A DNA stretch of 21,399 nt from Neisseriaceae bacterium (GTDB taxonomy: Bacteria > Pseudomonadota > Gammaproteobacteria > Burkholderiales > UBA11063). The position numbers were made by a program, and so were the translations under genes. Shown piece by piece: positions 3,600 through 20,877 of the stretch (position 1 is the first letter of the stretch; each line of letters starts with the position of its first letter). The stretch is from positions 1-21,399 of the forward strand of contig CANISK010000005.1 in the NCBI GenBank assembly GCA_947470205.1, given 5' to 3'. The notes below the pieces were generated by a model, which did no database searches, was not told the origin of the DNA, and saw nothing but the letters and a program-made list of their open reading frames with translations.

Positions 3600-3630
3600 T
3601 CTACTTTTGTCTTTGAAGAAAATTGTATTG

Positions 3631-4824
3631 ATGAATGAAACCATGAGAAATGAATATTTAGACCATGAAGATGATAAAGATATGGATGTGCTTGATGAAG
3701 AAGGGGAAAACTCTCTAAAACCAGACAAAATAGCAATTGATAATGGAACGATATATCCAACAAAAGTGATTTTCTCGCGTGAAATGTTTTCTGTGTATGA
3801 GCTAAAAAGAAGATGTGAGGATAGAAAATCTTTGATATTAGACCCAGATTATCAACGAGATGATGTTTGGAATAATAAACGAAAATCAGAATTAATTGAA
3901 TCTATACTCATGGGTATGCCATTACCAATGTTTTATTTTTTTGCAGATGAAAATGGTGAATGGCAAGTAATTGATGGCAGACAAAGATTAACTACATTAT
4001 TTGATTATATAAATGGTGAATTTAAACTTATTAATCAATTGAATATTTTGCATGCTATTCGTCAAAAATACTTTAAAGACTTAAAACCAATAGAACAGGG
4101 TATTATTGAGGATTACTCATTACAGATAAATATTATTAAACCACCAACTCCAGATCGAGTAAAATTTGATATATTTGATAGAGTAAACCGTGGGGGCATT
4201 AGGTTAAATAATCAAGAAATGAGGAATGCTATCTATCAAGGACAAGCAACAGAATTATTAAACAAATTATCTAAAAATCCAGATTTTTTAAGCAATATTG
4301 ATAATATTGAATCCGCGCCACTTAGCAAACGCATGAAAGATAAATATATTATATTAAGATTTCTTGGGTTTTATTTATTAAAATCTTGTAAATATGATGG
4401 TATATTGTTGGATAAAAATAGTGGTAAAATTGATTATTTAAGTGATATTGACGATTTTCTTGGGAAAATAATGTATTTTCTTAATCATAGCACAGGGGCA
4501 TTCATTAAGGAGATGAAACAAATATTTTCTCAGGCAATGGCAAATGCAAAAACAATTTTTGGCGACGGGTGTTTTAGACTTTCCAAATACAGTTCAAAAC
4601 CAAGAAAATTACCAGTTAATATGGCGCTTTTTGAATCATTATCATATCTATGTGCCGATAATGCTGTACTTATAAATATAGAAAAGACTAAACGACTTGT
4701 GGATGAATTATTTACTGCGGGTGAATTTATTAATACCATAAGCACCAATTCAATTGATAGTTCCGCAAATGTAAATGGCAGATTTAAAATTATGCGAGAA
4801 ACTCTGGAGAAACTTCATCAATGA
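3631..4824 (+). CDS. DUF262 (GmrSD N-terminal-like, ParB-fold) protein
   Basis: DUF262 is a ParB/Srx-fold domain found in GmrSD-type modification-dependent nucleases and other defence proteins, where DGQQR-like motifs bind or hydrolyse nucleotide. This 397-residue protein shows the family pattern: DPDYQRDDVW (71-80), ELIESILMGMPLPMFYF, IDGRQRLTTL with the key DGRQR at 115-119, and FDRVNRGGIRLNNQEMRNA (182-200). The remaining 200 residues are helical-looking and unrecognised. No HNH motif (DUF1524) is visible, so this is not a complete GmrSD enzyme. The start at 3631 has GAAGAA 10 nt upstream; an in-frame ATG at 3643 is possible, and one at 3520 lies inside typA. The acidic N-terminal 25 residues may be unstructured. 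It overlaps the ATPase gene by 4 nt (ATGA). Confidence 0.85.
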   Translation: MNETMRNEYLDHEDDKDMDVLDEEGENSLKPDKIAIDNGTIYPTKVIFSREMFSVYELKRRCEDRKSLILDPDYQRDDVWNNKRKSELIESILMGMPLPMFYFFADENGEWQVIDGRQRLTTLFDYINGEFKLINQLNILHAIRQKYFKDLKPIEQGIIEDYSLQINIIKPPTPDRVKFDIFDRVNRGGIRLNNQEMRNAIYQGQATELLNKLSKNPDFLSNIDNIESAPLSKRMKDKYIILRFLGFYLLKSCKYDGILLDKNSGKIDYLSDIDDFLGKIMYFLNHSTGAFIKEMKQIFSQAMANAKTIFGDGCFRLSKYSSKPRKLPVNMALFESLSYLCADNAVLINIEKTKRLVDELFTAGEFINTISTNSIDSSANVNGRFKIMRETLEKLHQ

Positions 4825-5915
4825 TTAAACAAGTAATAATTAGGGGTTTTAAATGTTTTTTTAATGAAACAATAGATTTTAAACCACTTACAGTTATCAC
4901 AGGTCCTAATTCTAGTGGCAAATCTTCCCTTATTCAAGCAATTCTTATAAATTTATCTCGTATTAATCATATTAATCCATCATCAGAATTGGAGTTATAT
5001 TTGCAAAACTTAGGAGGGTTCATTGATTTAAAAAATAAAACTCAAAATCCAAGTTCTTATGAAATTGATATTTGCTTCATAACTAACGACTGTATAAAAT
5101 ATATCAGAGACTTACATATATCTAAAGTAGACGTAATATATAACAGCAATGACACCTCCCTTCACACTATGGAATATCTACGAAACATTATTAATGTACA
5201 TTATTTATCTGCAAATCGTGCTCCTATCAAAGATTTTGCTCCAGAAAACACTTCATCTGAGATACAAAATTGTGGCATCTATGGACAATTTATTGAGCAA
5301 TATTATTATTTAAATAAAACAGAAGTAATTGCTGAAGAATTGCGCCATAAAAGTGTATACAATGGCAATACATTAGAGGCTCATGTATATTATTGGTTAA
5401 GTTATATTTGTGATATTAAAGATTTATCGTTAGATGTAGAGCGGTTACCGGCTAATAGGTATCGAACATATTATAAATTAGGCACCCAAGAATATACACC
5501 TCAAAATTTGGGCAGTGGCGTTAGTTATCTTATTGCCATCCTTACCCACGCTCTACTAATGCATAAACAAAAAGATGTATTTATTATTGAAAATCCAGAA
5601 ATACATTTACATCCACTCTCACAAGCTAGACTTGGAGAATTTTTTGCATTTGTTGCCAATACTGGAAGACAAATAATTATTGAAACTCACTCCGAACATT
5701 TAATTAGCAAATTAAGATATTGTGTATATAAGGATGTTTTGCAATCTACAGATGTAATAATTCACTACCGCACTACCAATCAAAGATTTGAAAAGATAGA
5801 AATTTTAGAAAATGGCAAAATATTAAATGAAGATAATGAGCATTGTTTTCCATTTGGATTTTTTGATGCCACACTGGATGATATTTTTGAAATAAATAGC
5901 AATGCCAAGTCGTGA
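4821..5915 (+). CDS. AAA/ABC-type ATPase with DUF3696-like C-terminus
   Basis: This 364-residue protein is a RecF/OLD-like ATPase of the AAA_15/AAA_21 group. Walker A is GPNSSGKSS (28-36), the ABC signature-like GSGVSYL is at 231-237, Walker B is VFIIENPEIHLHP (253-265) and ETHSEHLI follows at 288-295. The tail, FPFGFFDATLDDIF, resembles the GFFD motif that ends DUF3696 proteins. No TOPRIM domain follows, unlike true OLD nucleases, so the effector is probably another protein. GGAGA at 4806-4810 and the ATGA overlap with the DUF262 gene indicate tight co-translation. Such ATPases beside DUF262 genes occur in defence cassettes; role here is inferred from that context. Confidence 0.85.
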   Translation: MIKQVIIRGFKCFFNETIDFKPLTVITGPNSSGKSSLIQAILINLSRINHINPSSELELYLQNLGGFIDLKNKTQNPSSYEIDICFITNDCIKYIRDLHISKVDVIYNSNDTSLHTMEYLRNIINVHYLSANRAPIKDFAPENTSSEIQNCGIYGQFIEQYYYLNKTEVIAEELRHKSVYNGNTLEAHVYYWLSYICDIKDLSLDVERLPANRYRTYYKLGTQEYTPQNLGSGVSYLIAILTHALLMHKQKDVFIIENPEIHLHPLSQARLGEFFAFVANTGRQIIIETHSEHLISKLRYCVYKDVLQSTDVIIHYRTTNQRFEKIEILENGKILNEDNEHCFPFGFFDATLDDIFEINSNAKS

Positions 5916-6720
5916 AAATTCATTATCACATGTAGTATTGTCTGATAAACTCTTCAAATTATATTATCAGTTTCATCGTCTAGGCATTACAACTGATTTG
6001 GAAAATAAAAATAATACCAGTAAGCGATTATTGATTAAGCTATTATCATCATTACAAACATTTTGTACTAATCAAGCTCAGTTAATACGTATAGGATTCG
6101 AAAAAAGTATGATAGAAGGTTTTGAACCTACGAGTATGCCGTTATTAGTACAAATATATCGGGATGATGAATCATTGGATAAATTGGTATTAAAAAGCAA
6201 ATTGAAATTATTACTTATTAGCAAGCATGATGAATGCACAGATCCAGATATACTAACCTACAATATTTTAAATGATAAACAATGTGGATTTTATTATACT
6301 AAAACATTTAACGTGAATGATGATAAAACATTTGCTATTAATCATATTAATAAATTAATTGCAGATAGTACAAAAGTTGACATTGTTGATGCATATTTTT
6401 TCGCCGATGAAACACAAGCTACAGAAAATATAAACTTATTACAACAAATGAATTTCAATCCATCTGCTGTAGTGCATATTTATTGTTATAAAGATTATTG
6501 CGAAAATCAATACTCCATATCAGAAAACTTAACAAGCATACTAAAATGCAAAAACATTATTTATGAAGATTTCCCAAAACGTGCTCATGACAGACATATT
6601 GCAACTTCTGAGGTTAAAATTCGCTTACCTAATGGGATATATTCACTCACACAAAAAAACAAAGAAGTAACTTATGCAATAGAGGTTATAACTCCAGAAA
6701 GCAAAACGGTTCGTCTATGA
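5902..6720 (+). CDS. Unrecognised protein, possible PLD-like/MIT_C-like C-terminal half
   Basis: I do not recognise this 272-residue protein. The N-terminal half (to about residue 150) is leucine- and lysine-rich with no clear motif. The C-terminal half has VDIVDAYFF (159-167) followed 60 residues later by HDRHIATSEVKI (229-240). A hydrophobic strand ending in D-x-Y-F, then an H-D-R-x-I segment, resembles degenerate phospholipase-D-like domains of the MIT C-terminal type. The canonical HxKxxxxD motif is absent, so catalysis is uncertain. It overlaps the ATPase gene by 14 nt and the fusion-enzyme gene by 4 nt, so it should work with one or both. No signal peptide or membrane segment is visible. 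It may be the effector or adaptor of a three-gene defence cassette. Confidence 0.6.
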   Translation: MPSRENSLSHVVLSDKLFKLYYQFHRLGITTDLENKNNTSKRLLIKLLSSLQTFCTNQAQLIRIGFEKSMIEGFEPTSMPLLVQIYRDDESLDKLVLKSKLKLLLISKHDECTDPDILTYNILNDKQCGFYYTKTFNVNDDKTFAINHINKLIADSTKVDIVDAYFFADETQATENINLLQQMNFNPSAVVHIYCYKDYCENQYSISENLTSILKCKNIIYEDFPKRAHDRHIATSEVKIRLPNGIYSLTQKNKEVTYAIEVITPESKTVRL

Positions 6721-9700
6721 ACAATCAATTACATCAAAAAACAGAAAATCAAAAGACAGAAGATTTACTGCAATTATATAAATTTATGGTTGCATCCAGA
6801 GAAGTAGATATTATTGAATCTGAACTTGTCAATAGCGGAGAGGCAAATTTTCTTGCATCCAGCAAAGGACATGAAGGTTGTGCAATATTTGCACCATTTT
6901 TAATTAAATCAGATTACCTTCATTGTCATTATCGCGATAAAGCCCTTATGTTAGCTCGTGGCATTTCCCCGACAATGTTTTTTTATTCGGCTCTTGCTAA
7001 AGCTGAGTCTCATTCATCTGGTAGGCAGATGGTGTCTCACATGAGTGCTCCAGAGCTTAATATCACAAGTATTGTAGCGGCTGTGGGCAGTAATGCATTA
7101 CAAGCCACTGGAGTTGCCTCTGCCATTAAAAATAACCCCGATAACCCGATTGTGATTTGTCTCATAGGGGATGGAACCACCCAACAAGGAGAGGTATTAG
7201 AAGCGATCGCTGAGGCTACACGTTCAAATTTACCATTATTATTTGTGGTACATGATAACCACTATGCAATATCTACCAAAACCACTGGCAAGACATTTTT
7301 TTCATTACCAAATGATTCACACCCACAGTCATTCTACGGAGTACCCATCCATCATATTGATGGAGTGAATATCTTTGATTCATATAATACTATAGAGCAT
7401 ATTATTGATAATATGCGATTTAATAAATCCCCTCAAATTATAATATTAAATGTGGATAGATTAGATAACCACTCAAATGCAGATGATCAAAAACTATATC
7501 GTAGTGATGAAGAAATTTTAAATAGTAAAAATAATGACCCATTAGTTTTTGCATATAATTATTTATCTCAAATTGGAGTCTCATTAGATAAAATACATCA
7601 AGCTAAAGAAGAAGCAATACTTGAAGTGCGAAATGCAATACACACAGCAAGATCTGGCAGTATTCCACAAATTTGTATTGATGCAATAAACCCATTACCA
7701 GATTACCAATCTTTAAATATCACCGAATACAGAGGCACTAAAAATAATACAACCTCACAAATAGACCCAGAAAAACGCTATACCATGTTAGAGGCAATGC
7801 GTGAGACATTTAATTATCATCTTAAAACCAATCCAGAAGTATATTTATTTGGTGAAGATATTGAAGATAAAAAAGGTGATGTATTTGGTGTAACAAAAGG
7901 ATTATCTACTAAATATCCAAATCAAGTAAAAAATAGCCCATTAAGTGAATCTACCATCATAGGTATGTCTATTGGCATGGCATTGACCAAAAAAATACCA
8001 GTAGCGTTTATCCAATTTGCCGATTTTCTCGCTCCAGCGTTTAATCAAATATATACCGAACTTGCAACGATGTATTGGCGTACTAATGGCGGTTGGAATA
8101 CACCAGTGATTATTTTTGCAGCATGTGGTGGTTATAGACCAGGGCTTGGCCCATTTCATTCTCAAACTAATGAAGCAACTTATGCGCATATACCAGGAAT
8201 AGATGTATTTATGCCATCTAATGCAGCAGATGCCGCAGGGTTGTTAAATGCTGCATTTCATTCACATCGCCCAAGTTTATTTTTATACCCAAAAAAACTT
8301 TTAAATAATAGCGGTATAACGGATACCACTTCTCGTGATATTGAACGACACATTGTCCCAATTGGCGTTGGAAGAATTATAGCTCACGGACAAGATATTA
8401 CAATGGTAGCTTGGGGCAATACTGTTTCCTTATGCATTGAAGTTGCAAATACTTTAGAAGAACATGATATTTCATGTGAAATAATCGACCTTCGCACCAT
8501 AAAACCTTTTGATAAAAAACTTATCCTACAATCTACTGCAAAAACTAAACATTTATTAGTGGTGCATGAAGATAATATGATGTGTGGGGTAGGGAGTGAA
8601 ATTTTAGCGTTTGTGATGGAAAATAGTAAAATCCCCATTAAAGCTAAGCGTATCGCAAGACCAGATACCTACACTCCGTGTAATTTTATTAATCAAATGG
8701 AGATATTGCCTTCATATGAGACTATTTTAGAGGGTGCATGTCAAATTCTTGGATATGATATCCAGTGGAATATAGATAACAACCTCGATGACACATTGTA
8801 TTATGTCAATGTTATAGGTGCCAGCCCATCTGATGAAAGTATACTAATAACTCACATATATGTAAAAGTGGGAGATGTGGTAAATACACAAGATAGATTG
8901 GTAGATATTGAAGCCAGTAAGGCCTCTGGTGAAATCTTGTCACCAACTTCTGGGGTAGTTCATGAAATTATGGTTACTCAAGATGAAAAAGCTTTAGTTG
9001 GAAGCATATTGCTTACTTTAAAAATAGACCGCAATACGCAAAATCAAATTAAAAATATTACCAAAACCCCAATCATTAAAAAACAAATTAATAATTACAC
9101 GTCACCCATGAGTCATGCTAATAAAAATAATATCCATAAGGTTGGAATAAACATACCACTTTTTCAAACCGGATCAAGATTAGTTAAAAATGATGAATTA
9201 TTAAAACAATTCCCAGGCTTTAATAATGATGATATTGTACAACGCACTGGGATCTATCAACGTTATTGGTTAGATGATAACGAAAATATTCTTGATATTG
9301 CAGCCAATGTTACGCACCGAACTTTGGAAAAATATCAACTTCAATTAGCCGATATTGATATGATAATATGTGCTACATGTACGCAAGATGTCTATAAATC
9401 TCCCTCAATGGCATGTTTAATATTAAATAAACTATATAAAATTTATGGTGAGCATTCTTTAATCGCATATGATATCAACGCTGCATGCAGTGGGTACCTG
9501 TATGCCCTACAAAATGCTACAGATTACTTAAAAACCAGACCAGATAAAAGGGTATTATTAATTACTGCCGAATATTTATCTAATCATATTAATATCAAAG
9601 ATTTTGATACTGCATTTTTATTTGGAGATGGTGTCACTGCTACTATTATTTCAGGGGAAAATTATCTTGATAGCACATTTGCTACGGTAGATAATATTTA

Positions 9701-10100
9701 CTTAAGTGGTATTGGAGAAAGTGGAGATATTTTAAATATTTCTTGTGATAAATCTGTTGGAATTAAATTATCAGGTAAAAAATTATTTACTTTTGCTGTA
9801 AAATCAATGGCAAATGCTACTAAAAAATGTTGTGAACAACATGGGGTGACCCTTAGTGATATTGATGTAGTTATTCCACATCAAGCAAATCAACGCATTA
9901 TTGATGCAATAGAACACAGGTTAAAAATAAAATCAGGTTCTATGTATAGCAATGTTGCTAAATATGGCAACACTTCATCTTGTTCCATTCCTATTGCCAT
10001 GAATGAATCTCTAGATAACTGCACATCAGGTAACACGATTTTATTGGCTGCATTTGGTGGAGGATTTACCTTCGGCTCTGTAATTCTGACTTGTAGATAA
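6717..10100 (+). CDS. Fusion enzyme: 2-oxoacid dehydrogenase E1 alpha + E1 beta + lipoyl domain + KAS III
   Basis: Four enzyme modules lie in one 1127-residue chain. Residues 15-340 are E1 alpha, with the thiamine-diphosphate motif GDGTTQQGE (151-159) through N181. Residues 354-690 are E1 beta, starting KRYTMLEAMRETF and holding the conserved His in FHSQ (480-483). Residues 694-770 form a lipoyl domain with IEASKASGE, K735 being the likely lipoylated lysine. An N/K/T-rich linker leads to a full KAS III domain (806-1127). This has C924 in NAACSG, H1055 in PHQANQR and N1085 in GNTSS, with spacing matching E. coli FabH C112-H244-N274. No E2 acyltransferase or E3 domain is present. Expected chemistry is decarboxylation of a (branched-chain?) 2-oxoacid, transfer to lipoate, then condensation, probably with malonyl-ACP. 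The ATG overlaps the previous stop (ATGA) and lacks a good ribosome site, implying translational coupling. Confidence 0.93.
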   Translation: MNNQLHQKTENQKTEDLLQLYKFMVASREVDIIESELVNSGEANFLASSKGHEGCAIFAPFLIKSDYLHCHYRDKALMLARGISPTMFFYSALAKAESHSSGRQMVSHMSAPELNITSIVAAVGSNALQATGVASAIKNNPDNPIVICLIGDGTTQQGEVLEAIAEATRSNLPLLFVVHDNHYAISTKTTGKTFFSLPNDSHPQSFYGVPIHHIDGVNIFDSYNTIEHIIDNMRFNKSPQIIILNVDRLDNHSNADDQKLYRSDEEILNSKNNDPLVFAYNYLSQIGVSLDKIHQAKEEAILEVRNAIHTARSGSIPQICIDAINPLPDYQSLNITEYRGTKNNTTSQIDPEKRYTMLEAMRETFNYHLKTNPEVYLFGEDIEDKKGDVFGVTKGLSTKYPNQVKNSPLSESTIIGMSIGMALTKKIPVAFIQFADFLAPAFNQIYTELATMYWRTNGGWNTPVIIFAACGGYRPGLGPFHSQTNEATYAHIPGIDVFMPSNAADAAGLLNAAFHSHRPSLFLYPKKLLNNSGITDTTSRDIERHIVPIGVGRIIAHGQDITMVAWGNTVSLCIEVANTLEEHDISCEIIDLRTIKPFDKKLILQSTAKTKHLLVVHEDNMMCGVGSEILAFVMENSKIPIKAKRIARPDTYTPCNFINQMEILPSYETILEGACQILGYDIQWNIDNNLDDTLYYVNVIGASPSDESILITHIYVKVGDVVNTQDRLVDIEASKASGEILSPTSGVVHEIMVTQDEKALVGSILLTLKIDRNTQNQIKNITKTPIIKKQINNYTSPMSHANKNNIHKVGINIPLFQTGSRLVKNDELLKQFPGFNNDDIVQRTGIYQRYWLDDNENILDIAANVTHRTLEKYQLQLADIDMIICATCTQDVYKSPSMACLILNKLYKIYGEHSLIAYDINAACSGYLYALQNATDYLKTRPDKRVLLITAEYLSNHINIKDFDTAFLFGDGVTATIISGENYLDSTFATVDNIYLSGIGESGDILNISCDKSVGIKLSGKKLFTFAVKSMANATKKCCEQHGVTLSDIDVVIPHQANQRIIDAIEHRLKIKSGSMYSNVAKYGNTSSCSIPIAMNESLDNCTSGNTILLAAFGGGFTFGSVILTCR

Positions 10101-10191: not shown

Positions 10192-11211
10192 TTACATTTC
10201 CACCTTATTTAAAATTTCTAACAATTTACTTCCACACACTATATCACCAATACCATAAAATTCTTTGGTATAAAAATTTTGCCAAGGCGTATCTTTGATG
10301 GAGTCTAAATTAAATAAATCAATTACTCCATTAGTTCTAGGAATGCCTATAATTGGTTGTGTGGTATCAACCATCTCGTACGCAATAGTATCAATTATTG
10401 ATAATTTATTATACTGTGCACCATTGATGTCTGTGGCTATAAACTGTAATTCGTTCATACCAAATTGTATCACTTCACCTTTATTCTCTAAATTTTGCCT
10501 AATCTCATTTATTTTATTACCTATGTCATCTTTTTTAGAATTGTACATCGCGGTGAATAAATCAAGTGGATTGGTAAGCGGAACTGACGTGATGATTGCT
10601 TTGTCAATTGATCCCAATAAGAACATCCTCCAATCTTGGTGCACCTCAAAGTTAATCGGAGCAATTTCAGTTGGATCTTGTATTAATTTACCATACAAAA
10701 CAGGACTTCTATGTAATTTTATATAATTACAAATTAGCTTACAGAATGTTTTAGGCAGGTATGGCTTAAAAAATAGGCTATTCTCTTTCACGAGTATAAG
10801 TAATTTCTTTTTGTCTACTTCCTCAAGTTTTTCGCATGCTCTACTTAATAATTGCCCCAACTCTGCGTTATTATAATATCCTACATGATTTTGAATTTTT
10901 TTAGAATATTTAAACAAAATAATATTGCGTAATATTCGAAATACGTCATCATCTGATTTATTTTGTAGAGTTGCCACAATATCATTTGCAATGTCTAGCT
11001 TATAGTTACTTGGTTTTTTCTTTAAGCCCAGTTTACTAATGTTGTTATACATGTTTAATAATCTAAAACCTTCATGATGTTGACCCTGATTAACCTGAAT
11101 ATTGTTTTCAAGATCAACACCAAATAATGGCACGTCTGCCATCACTGGTATATTATTCAAAAAATTACCCCAAACACCATTGTTATTGATATTATTATTA
11201 TCTTGTATCAT
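10192..11211 (-). CDS. Hypothetical protein, 339 residues, no recognised family
   Basis: I recognise no domain. The first 12 residues are Asn-rich (QDNNNINNN). The rest looks soluble and mixed helical, with Lys/Ile-rich stretches, no signal peptide, no transmembrane segment and no obvious catalytic motif. Translation is well supported: AAAGGAG (complement of 11219-11225) lies 7 nt from the ATG, the best ribosome site in the window. It is a single-gene unit convergent with the operon on its other side, behind its own promoter and a large palindrome. An intracellular regulator or a secreted effector without a classical signal are both possible, and nothing in the sequence decides between them. 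Confidence 0.75.
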   Translation of the reverse strand: MIQDNNNINNNGVWGNFLNNIPVMADVPLFGVDLENNIQVNQGQHHEGFRLLNMYNNISKLGLKKKPSNYKLDIANDIVATLQNKSDDDVFRILRNIILFKYSKKIQNHVGYYNNAELGQLLSRACEKLEEVDKKKLLILVKENSLFFKPYLPKTFCKLICNYIKLHRSPVLYGKLIQDPTEIAPINFEVHQDWRMFLLGSIDKAIITSVPLTNPLDLFTAMYNSKKDDIGNKINEIRQNLENKGEVIQFGMNELQFIATDINGAQYNKLSIIDTIAYEMVDTTQPIIGIPRTNGVIDLFNLDSIKDTPWQNFYTKEFYGIGDIVCGSKLLEILNKVEM

Positions 11212-14542: not shown

Positions 14543-15181
14543 ATGTTTGAAGGATCATACCAACATTATTTATTGGGATTAATTGCAGTTGCCAACAACA
14601 TTCCAGCGTTAGCACCATTTATCGCGCTTACCAATGGTGCGAATAAAATCACAATACATAAATTAGCTATAGTAAGCACGATAAGTGCATTTATTGTAAT
14701 GATGGTATCTATGTTTTTTGGAACATTAATTTTAAAATTTTTTGGCATTTCGATTAGTGCATTTCAAATTGCTGGTGGTATTCTTTTGTGTAGCACTGGA
14801 ACCAGTATGTTGAATGCTCAAAACTCAAACGATGTAAGCGGTAAACAAATTACAGATACACAATTGGAATATTCTAAATTTGTGTCTGTCGCTATTGTAC
14901 CCATCGCACTTCCTCTCACCACTGGAGCTGGGACTATTTCTACAATTACACTCTTTGCAGCTATGGCATCAAAAAGCCATACACATATAGAATTATTTGT
15001 TGCTATTTTAACTATCACGTTGATTATATTTTTAGGGTTTTATTTTGCAAATAATGTTGTAAAAAAATTGGGCAATATTGGCATGAGTGTGTTAATTAAA
15101 GTTATGGGACTGTTTACGCTTGCTCTGGGTGTGCAATTTATTGTGACTGGGGTATCTACTGTGTATAAAGGATTAATATAA
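14543..15181 (+). CDS. MarC-family (UPF0056) integral membrane protein
   Basis: This 212-residue protein has about six transmembrane segments and the family pattern: an N-terminal ANNIPALAPFIALT, a central AFQIAGGILLCSTGTSML helix, and VPIALPLTTGAGTIST in the second half. MarC-type proteins are inner-membrane proteins of uncertain function, once linked to multiple antibiotic resistance, a link later disputed. AAGGGG at 14531-14536 gives a good ribosome site. It follows the amidohydrolase by 29 nt and is probably co-transcribed. Its last 9 nt overlap the end of the porin-like gene on the other strand. Confidence 0.9.
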   Translation: MFEGSYQHYLLGLIAVANNIPALAPFIALTNGANKITIHKLAIVSTISAFIVMMVSMFFGTLILKFFGISISAFQIAGGILLCSTGTSMLNAQNSNDVSGKQITDTQLEYSKFVSVAIVPIALPLTTGAGTISTITLFAAMASKSHTHIELFVAILTITLIIFLGFYFANNVVKKLGNIGMSVLIKVMGLFTLALGVQFIVTGVSTVYKGLI

Positions 15182-16609
15182 ATAACTTAGCATGATTTGT
15201 ATTACATAATTATTTCCTGAAGAATTAGATGGGGGGTTTTGTTGATAGGCATATACTCCAAAAATATTTAACCCTTTAATTTTCGGAGTTGCATAGGTTG
15301 TAATCAAATCATATTCGTGTGTGTTATTCCATTGCGACACTCCAGTTTTAAAAGCCGTCATGGATGGTGATATGGTTAATGATTTATCTAATAAATTAAT
15401 TGAAGCTCCTACTTTATATGCAGCACCAGAACTCCCCATGTCAACAAGACCAGCTATATATGGAGTGGTATATAAAGGATCATCTGCCATGCCATATGTA
15501 TAAGGTGACACAATTGCACCATGACCATAACCAGTTTCATTTCCCCACACATTATTGTAACTCACATTTAAGCTATAGCATTTATAAGTAATATTTCCTT
15601 GTATCCCCAAAAAATTACTTGAAATTTGCCCATAACTGCCTCCGTTTAATCCATTTCCAGGATCATTAATTGCATTAATATTATTTGCATTTCCATTTGA
15701 CATATCCATTCCGGCTTGAGTGTTTAGATTAAATGATAAGTCAGAATTTAGTGTAAATTTGCTATTGTCATTAGCATACAACAATTCACCATAATTGGCA
15801 AAATTATAGCCCCATATTTGAATAGTGTTTTGATGATTGAATAATTCACCATTTAAACCAACTGCAATTGTTCCGGCAGAGGCTCCAGTAACAGTATTAT
15901 TTGCAATAATACCGCTCAAGAAATCATACCCTGTATTATAATTTGTAAGACCAGTAAAAGATGATGACGAAATTCCTTGTGCACCGTTAAATCCTATCCC
16001 TGTTAATGTCCAATTTTTATTTATATTGACATTTATCATTGCTCCTTGATAACTATATGGAGTTGCTATCATGTTATTAAAATAATTTGGTGTGAGCCAT
16101 GGACTATTATTAATCCCAATTAATCCAGCATCCACTTGTAATAAATTATTATATTGATACTCAACAAATGCCTCAGATGGAGCCACCTGTTTCTGTGATG
16201 GCAAAAAATATGCTTGTGTGTTTGGGTTGTTGCCATTTATGTTGGTTGCAAAAAAGGGATTTACAATATCAATTAATCCACCAAAAGTAAAACCATACAA
16301 TTGACCAGTCTGAGCAAATAAATCTACCCCATAGCCATAATTTGTAAAACTTGACTGTGTACCGGTATATTGCATAGATACCGCACCGAAAGCATTCCAC
16401 TCACCATCACAAAACAAATGCTTGATGATACCATCTGTATTTGTTTGGGTATTATTGGTAACTTTTAAAGAGTGTATCCATGGGTTTTCGGTGTATATGG
16501 ATTGTTGAGTGATTATTGTATTATTAGATGATGGATTAATCTCCATGCTATCACCAAATGCCATTTGATGAAATATTAAAACTATTAAACATGAATATAT
16601 TAATTTCAT
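15173..16609 (-). CDS. Porin-like outer-membrane beta-barrel protein
   Basis: The 478-residue product starts with a short secretion signal (MKLIYSCLIVLIFHQMAFG, cleavage likely near FG-DS). It then shows many amphipathic, Asn/Gly/Tyr-rich strands and ends in YVIQIMLSYLY, the alternating, aromatic-terminated last strand typical of outer-membrane barrels. The family is not certain. The closing region (EYDLITTYATPKIKGLNIFGVYAY) loosely recalls OprD-type substrate-specific porins, but I cannot confirm that. It lies 41 nt downstream of the split FUSC exporter in the same direction, so it may be the last gene of the export operon, though an own promoter cannot be excluded. It overlaps marC convergently by 9 nt. 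Confidence 0.75.
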   Translation of the reverse strand: MKLIYSCLIVLIFHQMAFGDSMEINPSSNNTIITQQSIYTENPWIHSLKVTNNTQTNTDGIIKHLFCDGEWNAFGAVSMQYTGTQSSFTNYGYGVDLFAQTGQLYGFTFGGLIDIVNPFFATNINGNNPNTQAYFLPSQKQVAPSEAFVEYQYNNLLQVDAGLIGINNSPWLTPNYFNNMIATPYSYQGAMINVNINKNWTLTGIGFNGAQGISSSSFTGLTNYNTGYDFLSGIIANNTVTGASAGTIAVGLNGELFNHQNTIQIWGYNFANYGELLYANDNSKFTLNSDLSFNLNTQAGMDMSNGNANNINAINDPGNGLNGGSYGQISSNFLGIQGNITYKCYSLNVSYNNVWGNETGYGHGAIVSPYTYGMADDPLYTTPYIAGLVDMGSSGAAYKVGASINLLDKSLTISPSMTAFKTGVSQWNNTHEYDLITTYATPKIKGLNIFGVYAYQQNPPSNSSGNNYVIQIMLSYLY

Positions 16610-16650
16610 ATTGATTTTTTATTGTTGAATGATTTTATAATTATCGTTCA

Positions 16651-17517
16651 TTATTGCAATAGCAATGTATCTCTTGCGGTTTCTAAAAAAATATTTAATT
16701 TATTAAGACAACTTTCATAAGACTGTTCATTTTTATTATTAATAAATACAACCACGTATAATTCATCTATTGTAGTTTTTAAATTCCAAGCAATTTGAGT
16801 AAATTGATTGACTGTCAGTTTAGCTTTCTCACTTGAAGATGGTGAATTAAGAATCCCTGTTCCACTAAGCATAATTTCATTAAAAATTTCATTAAAATGA
16901 TCATAAATATGTGTTTTTATGATTAATCGATTATTAAACCTACTGTGATTGATAAAGTATGCTTTTATTTTATTATCCATTACCGTAAGTAGCTCCTCTT
17001 GTAGCATGCGATACATTTTTTCTGAATAACGAAAATTATTGAAAATAAGATAATCAGCAATAATGCATATTGCAATACCAATAATGGTACACAGCATACG
17101 GTTAATCGCAAGTTCCATTGGGCCTTCCAATAAAGATGATGAATTGGAAAACGCATCATTTAAAAATACAAGTACAGTCATTGCTGTAACTGACAAATCA
17201 TAATGTTTTTGGTTGGGTACATTCATCAATATTATTGATAACATTAATACAATTGATACCAATCTATAATTAAAATGAAATAAATATACCAATAATATCG
17301 ACAATAGAATACCAATAAAAGTACCGCGTCCTCGGTGAATTGATTTCACTATAATATGACCTGGGTGAACAGCACCCATAATCATAAGTACAGTTAATAA
17401 CACCCACCAGTTATGTGGAATATGTGTAAAAATGTAAAAAATCAGCCCAGTAGCATAAATCAATGATAATTGCAAAAATCTAACGTTGCGTAACTTCTGT
17501 TTTAAAGAGATCTGCAT
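16651..17517 (-). CDS. FUSC-type exporter, second half (membrane + cytoplasmic domain)
   Basis: This 288-residue protein begins with four to six membrane segments, including GAVHPGHIIVKSIHRGRGTFIGILLS, whose R-x-GT-x-G pattern marks the FUSC/FUSC_2 fold of fusaric-acid and aromatic-acid exporters (AaeB-like). A soluble helical C-terminal domain follows from about residue 165. On its own it is about half an AaeB protein (about 650 residues). The other half is the gene upstream, which it overlaps by 16 nt in a different frame. A weak GGAA site precedes the ATG. I read the pair as a functional two-subunit exporter, although a recent frameshift in a single gene is possible. Confidence 0.75.
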   Translation of the reverse strand: MQISLKQKLRNVRFLQLSLIYATGLIFYIFTHIPHNWWVLLTVLMIMGAVHPGHIIVKSIHRGRGTFIGILLSILLVYLFHFNYRLVSIVLMLSIILMNVPNQKHYDLSVTAMTVLVFLNDAFSNSSSLLEGPMELAINRMLCTIIGIAICIIADYLIFNNFRYSEKMYRMLQEELLTVMDNKIKAYFINHSRFNNRLIIKTHIYDHFNEIFNEIMLSGTGILNSPSSSEKAKLTVNQFTQIAWNLKTTIDELYVVVFINNKNEQSYESCLNKLNIFLETARDTLLLQ

Positions 17518-18437
17518 AGTTTATTCCAATTATCAATGGTTATATTTAGGTGTTTGATGAAGTATAGTTCAACCTTAGTTAAATCATGCAATAATTCAAC
17601 ATTAAGTGCGCTTGTAGTGCAGTTTTTTTTAATGTTATTGTAAAATTTTTGTATATGTTGGTTCAACGTAGACCAAGTCGATGTATTTTTTTTGCAATTA
17701 ACAAGATAAGTTGCAACAATAAACATATTGTTAATTGAAAAATTTATACGCATAACGTTAAATTTAATAGATTTTTTAACCAATTTACGATAAGCGTGCA
17801 TTGTTTTAAAATGCACATCATAGAGCATTAATTGTATATAATTGCTATTAATATTTGTACTGTCAATGTTTAATATATTTGTCAATCCAGCAAGATATAA
17901 AATAAATGCTCGTTGCCATACTTTATGATATATATTTGGAAAGCTAATTATTGATAAATAACAAATTATCATTGATAACATAATAGTACCAAACATACTG
18001 GTTGCAATTTGAAAGATTCCAGTTGGATGATATGACATATTCATAGAGCAAATAACAATAAACAAAACAACAAAAGCGCGTAATTTTGGTATATATTTGA
18101 TATATAACACATAAAGTGTACCAAAAAACCCTAACGATACAAATAATAATGCGAGTTTATATTGAAATACCATGTAAAAAAGTACCGAACCAAGCGCAAT
18201 CGTAAAATAAGTGATCACAAAAATGAATTTTTTTTCCTTATAGGATGTAAATAATGGATTTTCATAAATAGTTGCCACTAATGCTGTTGTGTATGTATGA
18301 GCAATAAACTGTGTTTTTATATGAAATATCCAGTCGATGTATACAAATATTGTAACAATATAAAGAGATTTATATAATATTAGACGTTGTGTGAAGTATG
18401 GGTCAATTTTCTCAAGATAGAGTGATATAGATTTCAT
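17502..18437 (-). CDS. FUSC-type exporter, first half (membrane + cytoplasmic domain)
   Basis: The 311-residue protein has about six hydrophobic segments in residues 20-180, then a soluble helical region rich in Asn, Ile and Lys. This matches the order of an AaeB N-terminal half: six membrane helices and a cytoplasmic domain. Sequence identity to known FUSC motifs is weaker here than in the downstream partner, so the call rests partly on context. It follows the HlyD adaptor gene by 20 nt and overlaps the partner gene by 16 nt. The likely role is the inner-membrane pump subunit of the export operon. No good ribosome site precedes the ATG. Confidence 0.65.
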   Translation of the reverse strand: MKSISLYLEKIDPYFTQRLILYKSLYIVTIFVYIDWIFHIKTQFIAHTYTTALVATIYENPLFTSYKEKKFIFVITYFTIALGSVLFYMVFQYKLALLFVSLGFFGTLYVLYIKYIPKLRAFVVLFIVICSMNMSYHPTGIFQIATSMFGTIMLSMIICYLSIISFPNIYHKVWQRAFILYLAGLTNILNIDSTNINSNYIQLMLYDVHFKTMHAYRKLVKKSIKFNVMRINFSINNMFIVATYLVNCKKNTSTWSTLNQHIQKFYNNIKKNCTTSALNVELLHDLTKVELYFIKHLNITIDNWNKLCRSL

Positions 18438-18457
18438 AATTTATAATACACCGCTTA

Positions 18458-19435
18458 CTAAGATTGAATATAAACATAAGCACTGCTACCAGCTCTCAAT
18501 GGATACTTATAATCTGGGTCTAATACCTTAATTTGAACTGGTAAACGTTGTGGCAATAATATCCATTCATTTTCATTAACTACATTTTGCATTTGTGTTT
18601 TTGTGTCGGTATTTTGACGGTTAACTCCCCAGTAATCTGATGTTACTATTCCGTGAAATATTTTAATACCTAAGTACATTCTTGGAAAAATTAATACTTT
18701 TGAACCATTGTGTACTCGTGTTAAATCAGTTTCATTGAAGTTTGCTTGAAAATAAACATCATCCGTATCAACAAAAGAAAATAGCGGTTGATTAATGTTA
18801 ACCGGTGAAGATATTGAAATGAACATGTTTTGAATTACGCCATTACTGGCGGCGTAAACAATTGTAGCACCTAATTTAATTTTTTCAATGTTGAGTTTGG
18901 CATTCATGCTAATAATCTCCTGTTGTTGGGCTTTGATATTTTCTTCATCAATACTTAATTGTTCTTTGCTGGCTTTCATTAATGACATCGCTGCGATTGT
19001 TTCTTGTTTGCTGTGTTGTAATTCCATAAGTGATATTGCCCGAATGTTATATGCTTGTTGATATTTTTCATCATCTTCCATTGATTTAATGTACATAGCC
19101 TTATGATTATTAAAAATATTTCTATCTTTCTCTAGGGTTTTTTTCAATGATGCTAACTTGGCGGTAGATTCTTGTAAGTTTGCTGTCAATTGCATGACTG
19201 AATAATAATAAGGTTTATCAAATACAGTAAATAATTTCTCTCCTTTTTTGACGTATTGACCATTTTTTACATATAAATTTGTTATAAATCCATTTACTTG
19301 TGCTGCTACTGGACGTATATTGTTGATTACAAATGCATCATCAGTAATTGGAAATAAATAAGAAAACATATAAACAAAAGTGGTTAATATTCCCAGTGTA
19401 ATTACAATATTTGCAAATGAAAAATATTTTTTCAT
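18458..19435 (-). CDS. HlyD/EmrA-type periplasmic adaptor (membrane fusion protein)
   Basis: The adaptor bridges an inner-membrane pump and an outer-membrane channel across the periplasm. The 325 residues contain one N-terminal membrane anchor (about 8-28). The first half of a lipoyl-like domain (VAAQVNGFITNLYVKNGQYVK, 45-65) comes next, then a long coiled coil (about 80-185). The second lipoyl half (GATIVYAASNGVIQNMFI) and a beta-barrel domain with NFNETDLTRVHNGSKV complete it. The length and layout match AaeA/EmrA-like adaptors. GGAGG (complement of 19444-19448) 8 nt upstream of the ATG is a strong ribosome site. It lies 68 nt after the channel gene and 20 nt before the pump genes. Confidence 0.92.
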   Translation of the reverse strand: MKKYFSFANIVITLGILTTFVYMFSYLFPITDDAFVINNIRPVAAQVNGFITNLYVKNGQYVKKGEKLFTVFDKPYYYSVMQLTANLQESTAKLASLKKTLEKDRNIFNNHKAMYIKSMEDDEKYQQAYNIRAISLMELQHSKQETIAAMSLMKASKEQLSIDEENIKAQQQEIISMNAKLNIEKIKLGATIVYAASNGVIQNMFISISSPVNINQPLFSFVDTDDVYFQANFNETDLTRVHNGSKVLIFPRMYLGIKIFHGIVTSDYWGVNRQNTDTKTQMQNVVNENEWILLPQRLPVQIKVLDPDYKYPLRAGSSAYVYIQS

Positions 19436-19503
19436 TATCTTGTCCTCCGATTTTTAAATATATGTGCTTGAGGTTTGAAGTATAAATTAACAATAAATAT
19501 TTA

Positions 19504-20877
19504 TTACCTTTTAGAGTGAGCGGTATTATATTTATATCCACCAGATAAGTTTTGATATAAATTTACCAGTGCAATAGCTTGACTCAGCTTAGCTTGATTT
19601 AACAAAATCTCCAATTCATCCAAACGAAGTTTATTGATAATTAGCGTACTATATGACATAATGCCAATTTGATATAATTTGTACTGTAAGTGATAATTAT
19701 GCAGCACATCTTTATATGCCTTATATGTGTTATCATAATTTTTATTGGCTGTCTGATGATTAACATAGCTATCCTCCACCTCTCTGAGAATTTTGTGTAC
19801 TGTTTGAATGTATTGATAGACGCTATTTTTGTAGGCACTCTTTTGCGTTTGTAAGTGACCAAAAAAAGTTGGATTAATTTGCCAATTCAAATATGCATCA
19901 TTCATATTCATATGTTGATTAGGACTTGCCACGGTGCCATTTGTACTACCAGCCCCAAAAAAAGTGTCCAATTGTGCCGTGGGAAATAAATCGGAATAAG
20001 CAACGCCAATTCCTTCATAATTTGCTCTCAATGTATTTTCAGCAATCAATAAATCTGGACGGTTATGTATTACCTCCATAGGAAGTGCACCAGGTTTAAA
20101 TATATTAAAATTAATTTTGTTGAAATTATCGCCGTCTGTAATAGCTACATTACCAGGGTTTTCGTTTATTAGATATTTAAGTGAATTTTGACTAAGTTTT
20201 ATATTTTGTATAGTTTGATTAATTTGTTGGTTGATTAATTCATAATTAGCGGATAGTGTATTTAATTCAATCTTGGTGTTTATACCAATTTTTATTTGCT
20301 GTTTAATTAGATTAATTAATATTTGATTATCATCACGCATCGTTGTTAATAGTTTGAGGTTATTTTTATATGCGACAAGTGTGAAATAACTACTTGTTAT
20401 CTGACTAATTAATGTTATTTTTACCCCGTCAACTATTGCTTTGCTCACTTCTACATTATATTTAGCTTGCTGTTGTTCTTTGTAAATTTTGAAAATATTT
20501 GGTACGTATTCTGGCCATATTCCATAAAATACACCAGGATTGCCAAAAGATGGATTTCCTGAGTATCCAGCATACAAACTTACAAAAGGAATAAAGCTAA
20601 GTTGTATTGCCTGGAGCAATCCTTGAGATTGCTCCACATTGCTAATTGCCATTTTAATATCAAGATTATCGTCTAGTCCATTATCAATTATCGTGTTTAA
20701 ATCTTTATTTTTAAATTGTTTCCACCACGCCAAATAGGGTAAATTATTAGTAATGACATAATCATCATTAATGGCGTTAAATGAGTTTGAAATATGTACT
20801 TGTGGCACAACCGTTGATTCTTGTGTGCTACTACATGCACCAACTAACATGGTTAGTAATATTAATAAATTACGCAT
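19504..20877 (-). CDS. NodT-family outer-membrane efflux channel lipoprotein (TolC-like)
   Basis: This 457-residue protein is the outer-membrane channel of the export operon. The N-terminus (MRNLLILLTMLVGACSS) is a lipoprotein signal with lipobox VGAC, so C15 should be acylated. The mature protein opens with the family's LAWWKQFKNKDLNTIIDNGL and has two outer-membrane efflux domains: about residues 60-235, and 265-445 with RPDLLIAENTLRANYEGIGVA. Coiled-coil repeats are rich in Gln and Asn. AGGAA 7-8 nt upstream of the ATG serves as ribosome site. It is the first gene of the minus-strand operon that continues with the adaptor, the split pump and the porin. The operator candidate at 20913 lies 36 nt upstream. 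Confidence 0.93.
   Translation of the reverse strand: MRNLLILLTMLVGACSSTQESTVVPQVHISNSFNAINDDYVITNNLPYLAWWKQFKNKDLNTIIDNGLDDNLDIKMAISNVEQSQGLLQAIQLSFIPFVSLYAGYSGNPSFGNPGVFYGIWPEYVPNIFKIYKEQQQAKYNVEVSKAIVDGVKITLISQITSSYFTLVAYKNNLKLLTTMRDDNQILINLIKQQIKIGINTKIELNTLSANYELINQQINQTIQNIKLSQNSLKYLINENPGNVAITDGDNFNKINFNIFKPGALPMEVIHNRPDLLIAENTLRANYEGIGVAYSDLFPTAQLDTFFGAGSTNGTVASPNQHMNMNDAYLNWQINPTFFGHLQTQKSAYKNSVYQYIQTVHKILREVEDSYVNHQTANKNYDNTYKAYKDVLHNYHLQYKLYQIGIMSYSTLIINKLRLDELEILLNQAKLSQAIALVNLYQNLSGGYKYNTAHSKR

Follow-up and report, generated by a model that had tools for sequence, protein, structure and literature searches.

A fused E1–lipoyl–KAS III protein of several bacterial phyla as a candidate CoA-bypassing synthase for priming branched fatty acids

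INTRODUCTION

In classical branched initiation of fatty acid synthesis, free acyl-coenzyme A (acyl-CoA) is released by the branched-chain 2-oxoacid dehydrogenase (Bkd) complex and used by a separate, free-standing FabH, a β-ketoacyl-acyl carrier protein (ACP) synthase III (KAS III), and the FabHs of Bacillus subtilis and Staphylococcus aureus use branched primers of this kind. Here we analyse a gene, located in a 21,399-nt stretch of a Neisseriaceae bacterium (GenBank assembly GCA_947470205.1, contig CANISK010000005.1; the whole stretch is hereafter called the window), that encodes E1-alpha, E1-beta, lipoyl and KAS III modules on one chain, and for which an earlier note on this DNA had proposed a role as starter-unit synthase.

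With the branched-chain 2-oxoacid dehydrogenase complex (e.g. that of Thermus thermophilus, 1um9) the protein shares a thiamine diphosphate (ThDP)-dependent E1-alpha/E1-beta with its catalytic residues and a lipoyl-lysine carrier. Unlike that complex, it holds E1-alpha, E1-beta and lipoyl domain on a single chain, has neither the E2 core nor the E3-binding domain, and its acceptor is probably a condensing enzyme and not CoA. The KAS III module differs from the FabHs of Escherichia coli, S. aureus, Aquifex and B. subtilis in having lost the residues that clamp the CoA adenine, together with Lys214 in 194/198 domains and Phe87, replaced by Ser or Thr in 194/198, and in being covalently joined to its likely acyl source. 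The overall conversion, from branched 2-oxoacid to branched β-ketoacyl-ACP, is likely that of the classical route, but the intermediate of the fused enzyme probably never leaves the polypeptide. The modules are known; the joint and the acyl hand-over are probably new. Characterised homologues, which the earlier note had named as a possible objection, did not surface: searches aimed at the fusion in the open-licence PMC literature found no description of one, and PMC5011732, in the portion available, concerns free-standing FabH and not a fusion.

RESULTS

A four-module protein conserved in several phyla

The gene is intact, with an open frame and every catalytic residue present (Table 1), and the structure predicted for the 1127-aa product has a pLDDT (predicted local distance difference test) of 88. 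Residue conservation was counted from the aligned columns of 199 fused proteins, P0112 (856 aa) being left out. In the ThDP motif, G151 is found in 198, D152 in 191 (Glu in 7) and N181 in 198 proteins; the E1-beta His481 is kept in 198 and the lipoyl-domain Lys735 in all 199; of the KAS III triad, Cys924 and His1055 are each present in 199 and Asn1085 in 198, with one gap. Counted by domain, the triad is complete in 197/198 KAS III domains, and the remaining one, L129, runs off its contig. By its domains, ThDP motif and catalytic histidine the protein thus qualifies, as far as sequence can tell, as an α/β-type 2-oxoacid dehydrogenase E1; the lipoyl fold, the invariant lysine and a lipoylation pathway in the genome likewise identify a lipoyl domain, in which lipoylation of Lys735 itself is predicted. 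The last module is a KAS III fold with a Cys-His-Asn triad. The protein is not a complete 2-oxoacid dehydrogenase complex, for it has no E2 catalytic domain (PF00198).

The arrangement is shared by a large family. Among the best 120 of 1616 matches in a protein database search, 118 are 1095–1162 aa long, and the E1, lipoyl and KAS III Pfam domains occur together in 119, the exception being an 856-aa partial sequence. Named carriers among these 120 include Neisseriaceae, Burkholderiales, Francisellaceae, Fangia, Cysteiniphilum, Caedibacter and Planctomycetales. In the 27 members that were scanned for domains, all six core domains were found in every one, and PF00198 and the E3-binding domain PF02817 in none. 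The same module order is seen in Neisseriaceae-like metagenome-assembled genomes (MAGs), Fastidiosibacteraceae, Spirochaetota, Planctomycetota, Kiritimatiellota and others, in isolates as well as MAGs of several phyla. The four-module chain with its key residues, as put forward in the earlier note, is borne out; its order is conserved, and a one-off assembly is ruled out as the origin of the fusion. Public annotation names single pieces only (2-oxoisovalerate dehydrogenase, transketolase, beta-ketoacyl-ACP synthase 3).

In a collection of species genomes, a relative is encoded in 337/413 candidate stretches, and the best 80 of these 337 were used for all analyses of named loci. A rapidly built tree with 79 rows, for 78 of the 80 loci and the window (L076 and L129 left out), comprises 27 Pseudomonadota, 20 Planctomycetota, 19 Spirochaetota, 5 Kiritimatiellota, 2 Lentisphaerota, 2 Verrucomicrobiota, 1 Sumerlaeota, 1 cyanobacterial MAG and 2 rows without group. 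In this tree the window's copy lies on a fairly long branch (0.64), two Accumulibacter rows (L113, L127) are nested in Spirochaetota with support 98–99, and three Rhizobium rows (L123, L125, L138) form a long branch beside Planctomycetota with support 81; Rhizobium lusitanum and R. freirei are among the carriers. The Accumulibacter and Rhizobium placements suggest horizontal transfer, of which tree placement alone is no proof. Within the window's taxonomic order the enzyme was found in 4/150 sampled genomes, all of one genus. Of the 23 genomes of that genus, 17 have a full-length copy, 3 have pieces and 3 have no copy, the last three genomes being 52–81% complete; two of the 17 full-length copies have one stop marked in the aligned span, yet each has an open frame of 1113 aa.

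The fused KAS III module lacks the CoA-adenine clamp

We compared 198 fused KAS III domains (186 distinct, as database proteins and named loci overlap; L076, which starts at residue 266, left out) using the numbering of E. coli FabH. Two of the positions compared, Phe87, which we take to gate the acyl pocket of FabH, and Arg249, which presumably docks ACP on FabH, lie outside the clamp; on Phe87, the accessible text of PMC10054515 is uninformative. For the clamp itself, the available text of a study of Yersinia pestis FabH, in which the CoA of E. coli FabH was superposed, describes the CoA adenine as apparently hydrogen-bonded to Thr28 and stacked between Trp32 and Arg151 (PMC4606726). None of these residues survives in the fused domains: Thr28 is kept in 0/198, position 32 is never Trp (Asp in 178, Glu in 11) and position 151 never Arg (Phe in 160). 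Phe87 is likewise gone from all 198, with Ser in 121 and Thr in 73, and Lys214 is retained in only 4. Arg36 (174/198), Asn247 (198/198) and Arg249 (197/198) are retained. The copies of Pontiella have Ala, Gln and Thr at positions 32, 151 and 87, and Lys214 is present in them.

As a control, six free-standing FabHs of the window's genus were taken from the 21 genomes that have one; all six keep Thr28, Trp32, Arg151, Lys214 and Arg249, and four keep Phe87. Five solved free-standing FabHs have Trp, Arg and Phe at positions 32, 151 and 87. A further control set, of free-standing relatives, was rejected because it contained many truncated pieces of the same fused family. The overall KAS III fold is that of CoA-using FabHs, which are its matches in Foldseek and in VIA-align, whose structural rows cover E1-beta and KAS III. 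Judged from these residues, the site that would bind an acyl-CoA primer is absent from the family. With the clamp lost and the triad and Arg249 kept, the most economical interpretation is a primer that is no longer delivered by CoA, together with a mostly preserved carrier-protein side.

Lipoate synthesis is kept in the window's genome

The window's genome consists of 1,428,274 bases in 197 contigs and is 88% complete. In this assembly we found no match to the E2 catalytic domain PF00198 or to GcvH (PF01597), and no E3 over cut-off, six weak matches reaching at best 47 bits against a cut-off of 409. The lipoyl domain family PF00364 matches two proteins only, the fused protein and the biotin carrier AccB, which is encoded beside AccC. 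Lipoate synthesis is represented by LipA (435 bits) and LipB (196 bits); GcvH, LipA and LipB were searched for in the window's genome, and E2 and E3 across the genus. E2 was found in 20/23 genus genomes, the exceptions being the window's genome, G161 and G168, and E3 over cut-off in 21/23, the exceptions being the window's genome and G161, which is 74% complete. Other lipoyl enzymes are probably gone from the window's organism, with 12% of the genome unseen; if so, the fused protein keeps lipoate synthesis alive.

The genome also encodes a branched-chain aminotransferase (BCAT, IlvE; 308 bits) and an ordinary FabH (G000:C160) that is 51% identical to E. coli FabH, and the fused KAS III is therefore a second KAS III. 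A free-standing FabH-like match is present in 21/23 genus genomes.

Indications of the substrate

The best PDB match of E1-alpha is a 2-oxo acid dehydrogenase of T. thermophilus (126 bits); human branched-chain 2-oxoacid dehydrogenase (BCKDH) scores 87 bits and the pyruvate dehydrogenase (PDH) 1w85 72 bits. Iso fatty acids of even chain length are those to be expected when synthesis starts with isobutyryl, which is formed from 2-oxoisovalerate. A search with a Pontiellaceae copy showed that two cultured species, Pontiella desulfatans (P0243, 1109 aa) and P. sulfatireligans (P0265, 1108 aa), carry the enzyme. According to the available part of their description, the major fatty acids of both are C18:0, i-C12:0, i-C14:0 and i-C18:0, with i-C16:0 in addition in P. 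sulfatireligans (PMC7356697); those of P. agarivorans are alike, as given in the accessible text of PMC10880615.

Gene neighbourhood

Table 1. Positions of the fused gene, its functional residues and neighbouring features (nt in the window unless a locus is named)
Feature	Position	Strand	Evidence or remark
Fused E1-alpha/E1-beta/lipoyl/KAS III protein, 1127 aa	6717..10100	+	intact ORF and domain matches
E1-alpha (E1_dh), residues 21-319	6777..7673	+	Pfam PF00676, 129 bits
ThDP motif G151-D-G ... N181 in E1-alpha	7167-7259	+	
E1-beta: Transket_pyr 356-530 and Transketolase_C 552-656	7782..8684	+	
E1-beta His481	8157-8159	+	
Lipoyl domain, residues 708-768	8838..9020	+	Pfam PF00364
Lipoyl-accepting Lys735 (predicted modification)	8919-8921	+	in PF00364 domain
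KAS III module, residues 820-1126	9174..10094	+	NCBIfam NF006829, 270 bits
KAS III triad Cys924 / His1055 / Asn1085	9486-9488 / 9879-9881 / 9969-9971	+	
Asp839, at E. coli FabH Trp32 position (CoA-adenine stacking)	9231..9233	+	
Ser895, at E. coli FabH Phe87 position	9399..9401	+	
Phe963, at E. coli FabH Arg151 position (CoA-adenine stacking)	9603..9605	+	
NsnA, NsnB, NsnC module	3610-6720	+	PADLOC matches in order: 347, 272, 69 bits
339-aa protein	10192-11211	-	no Pfam, NCBIfam or PADLOC match
Outer-membrane barrel, two FUSC-like membrane proteins, HlyD-type adaptor, outer-membrane efflux factor	15173-20877	-	putative, by reading alone
Short-chain dehydrogenase/reductase of related loci	L094 (5114-5962), L074, L077, L087, L089, L090, L100, L107		

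Across the 80 named loci, the recurrent neighbours of the fused gene change by clade: malic enzyme in the window's clade, topoisomerase I in Fastidiosibacteraceae, and aconitase, seryl-tRNA synthetase, RelA/SpoT and MsrB mainly in spirochaetes. Ten recurrent neighbours were annotated; they are mostly housekeeping and also include a phosphoenolpyruvate-utilising enzyme and NeuB, and no polyketide synthase (PKS) or non-ribosomal peptide synthetase (NRPS) was among these ten, most neighbours being left unannotated. The hint of a small-molecule product in the earlier note thus finds no echo in the annotated neighbours, whose mostly housekeeping nature makes membrane fatty acids more likely than a dedicated small-molecule pathway. 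BLAST of neighbouring ORFs with E3 and E2 queries of the genus gave E3-like hits at two loci, one of them a piece of 120 aa, and a single E2-like hit, so rare that neither constitutes a conserved partner.

In 5/80 loci (1996-4278 in L060; also L059, L061, L074 and L075), the gene immediately preceding the fused one, on the same strand, encodes a NADP malic enzyme. Among the 80 loci this neighbour is restricted to the window's clade, and pieces of it occur beside the fused gene in several loci of genus genomes; it may connect pyruvate or NADPH with fatty acid synthesis. In 8/80 loci, seven of them in spirochaetes, a short-chain dehydrogenase/reductase is encoded on the same strand, one to two ORFs downstream. 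It scores below the cut-off of each of the 25 NCBIfam families shown, and is a possible partner reductase that could bear on lipids.

In the window itself, typA and the fused gene are separated by an Nsn module, whose NsnC frame shares four bases with the start of the fused gene, at its ATG. In L071, the closest named relative, the next upstream ORF is 85% identical to the window's TypA, and none of the 80 named loci has an Nsn-like ORF beside the fused gene. The window's lineage has probably acquired the module at this position, downstream of typA and ahead of the fused gene, as a lineage-specific defence insertion that is most likely unrelated to the function of the enzyme. On the other side, the gene for a 339-aa protein is convergent with the fused gene, and further downstream lies a run of putative envelope and efflux genes (Table 1).

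DISCUSSION

We propose that the fused protein is a self-contained, CoA-bypassing 2-oxoacid-to-β-ketoacyl-ACP synthase that primes branched fatty acids, and assign this reading a probability of roughly 0.7; the direct transfer, the substrate, the acceptor and a dimer are what we infer within it. It is favoured because the clamp is lost, because lipoate synthesis is kept in a genome in which no other lipoyl-type domain except that of AccB was found, and because the enzyme is carried by Pontiella species with iso-even fatty acids. In such a scheme, BCAT would supply the branched-chain 2-oxoacid (most likely 2-oxoisovalerate or a similar compound) that E1-alpha/beta would decarboxylate with ThDP, reductively acylating the lipoyl-lysine at Lys735. 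The lipoyl domain would then swing to the KAS III of the same polypeptide or of a dimer partner and pass the acyl group directly to Cys924, so that KAS III would stand in for the E2 transacylase and no free acyl-CoA would be made. Condensation of the acyl group with malonyl-ACP would give the first branched β-ketoacyl-ACP of the fatty acid, and re-oxidation of the dihydrolipoyl arm would fall, in trans, to E3 in genomes that encode it and elsewhere to another oxidant. For the window's organism we lean, at little better than even odds, to the fuller picture of a condensing enzyme in place of E2 that alone uses lipoate and depends for its re-oxidation on a non-classical substitute for E3. As to the earlier note, its starter-unit synthase stands as the best reading, in that 2-oxoacid decarboxylation is joined to KAS III, and its dedicated small-molecule pathway gains no support.

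Several observations weigh against this proposal. The free-standing controls are few (six genus FabHs, E. coli FabH and five PDB sequences). Replacement of Phe87 is not needed for a branched acyl group, since the FabHs of B. subtilis and S. aureus keep this residue, and the loss of Lys214, which we assume to be part of the ACP side, counts slightly against a kept carrier-protein side. No re-oxidation partner for dihydrolipoyl was identified in the window's genome, where no E3 exceeds the cut-off, and IlvE is over cut-off in only 13/23 genus genomes (8/11 of those at least 90% complete). The substrate is the least certain step, and a pyruvate-using variant may exist: E1-beta scores 169 bits with T. 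thermophilus and 168 with human BCKDH versus 160 and 159 with two PDHs, E1-alpha scores 46 bits with Pseudomonas putida BCKDH, below the PDHs, and the best NCBIfam names for E1 are PDH, far below cut-off, so that the E1 module does not, by these comparisons, clearly separate BCKDH from PDH. The enzyme occurs in Rhizobium, and branched fatty acids are not a known trait of rhizobia. The link between enzyme and iso-even fatty acids in Pontiella is a correlation; a separate BCKDH may be present there, and in the portion of the description available the most abundant fatty acid of both species is the straight-chain C18:0 (PMC7356697). Fatty acid profiles of Fangia and Cysteiniphilum were not found in the open-licence literature, including the accessible part of PMC12213064.

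If the same mechanism were run with pyruvate, acetyl-lipoyl would lead to acetoacetyl-ACP and a straight chain would be started without acetyl-CoA or a PDH complex. The pyruvate-making malic enzyme directly upstream in the window's clade relatives, the E2 not detected in the window's genome, the PDH names of the best-scoring NCBIfam E1 models and the leading place of C18:0 in Pontiella would all agree with this, but that neighbour is confined to one clade, the PDH matches are far below cut-off, BCAT is kept in the window's genome, the Ser or Thr at position 87 suggests a larger acyl pocket, and both Pontiella species make iso-even fatty acids; we hold this variant to be unlikely. Rather improbable, too, is that the enzyme makes starter units specifically for a secondary lipid, a signal or a polyketide and not for membrane fatty acids. 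Special starters typically involve a second KAS III in addition to a housekeeping FabH, and 21/23 genus genomes have a free-standing FabH-like match; occurrence in rhizobia and the downstream short-chain dehydrogenase/reductase, mostly of spirochaetes, point the same way. Against it stand the mostly housekeeping, clade-dependent character of the ten scanned neighbours, the lack of PKS or NRPS among them (with most neighbours unannotated) and the retention of the gene in a small genome of 1.4 Mb.

The fusion might also serve co-expression only, with KAS III still using acyl-CoA made elsewhere and no hand-over from the lipoyl domain. Although the triad and the phosphopantetheine-contact residues are intact and the structural matches are CoA-using FabHs, the absence of the whole clamp from 198/198 domains, and of an E2 transacylase from the 27 proteins scanned and, as far as found, from the window's genome, leaves this idea with very little credence. 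An artefact of assembly or gene calling, or a decaying gene, could be imagined from the fragmented genome and the fairly long branch of the window's copy; its probability is close to nil, given the same order in isolates and MAGs of several phyla and the open frame with intact catalytic residues in the window.

In many bacteria, membrane fluidity is governed by branched fatty acids. The piecemeal public naming of the protein hides a fused system. If the proposal of a CoA-bypassing synthase is true, the family would provide a route into fatty acid synthesis that does without CoA and channels its substrate, would be a compact module for the production of iso-fatty acids, and would explain why lipoate synthesis survives where other lipoyl enzymes seem to have been lost. 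Cultured carriers, e.g. Pontiella and Fangia, make the enzyme directly testable.

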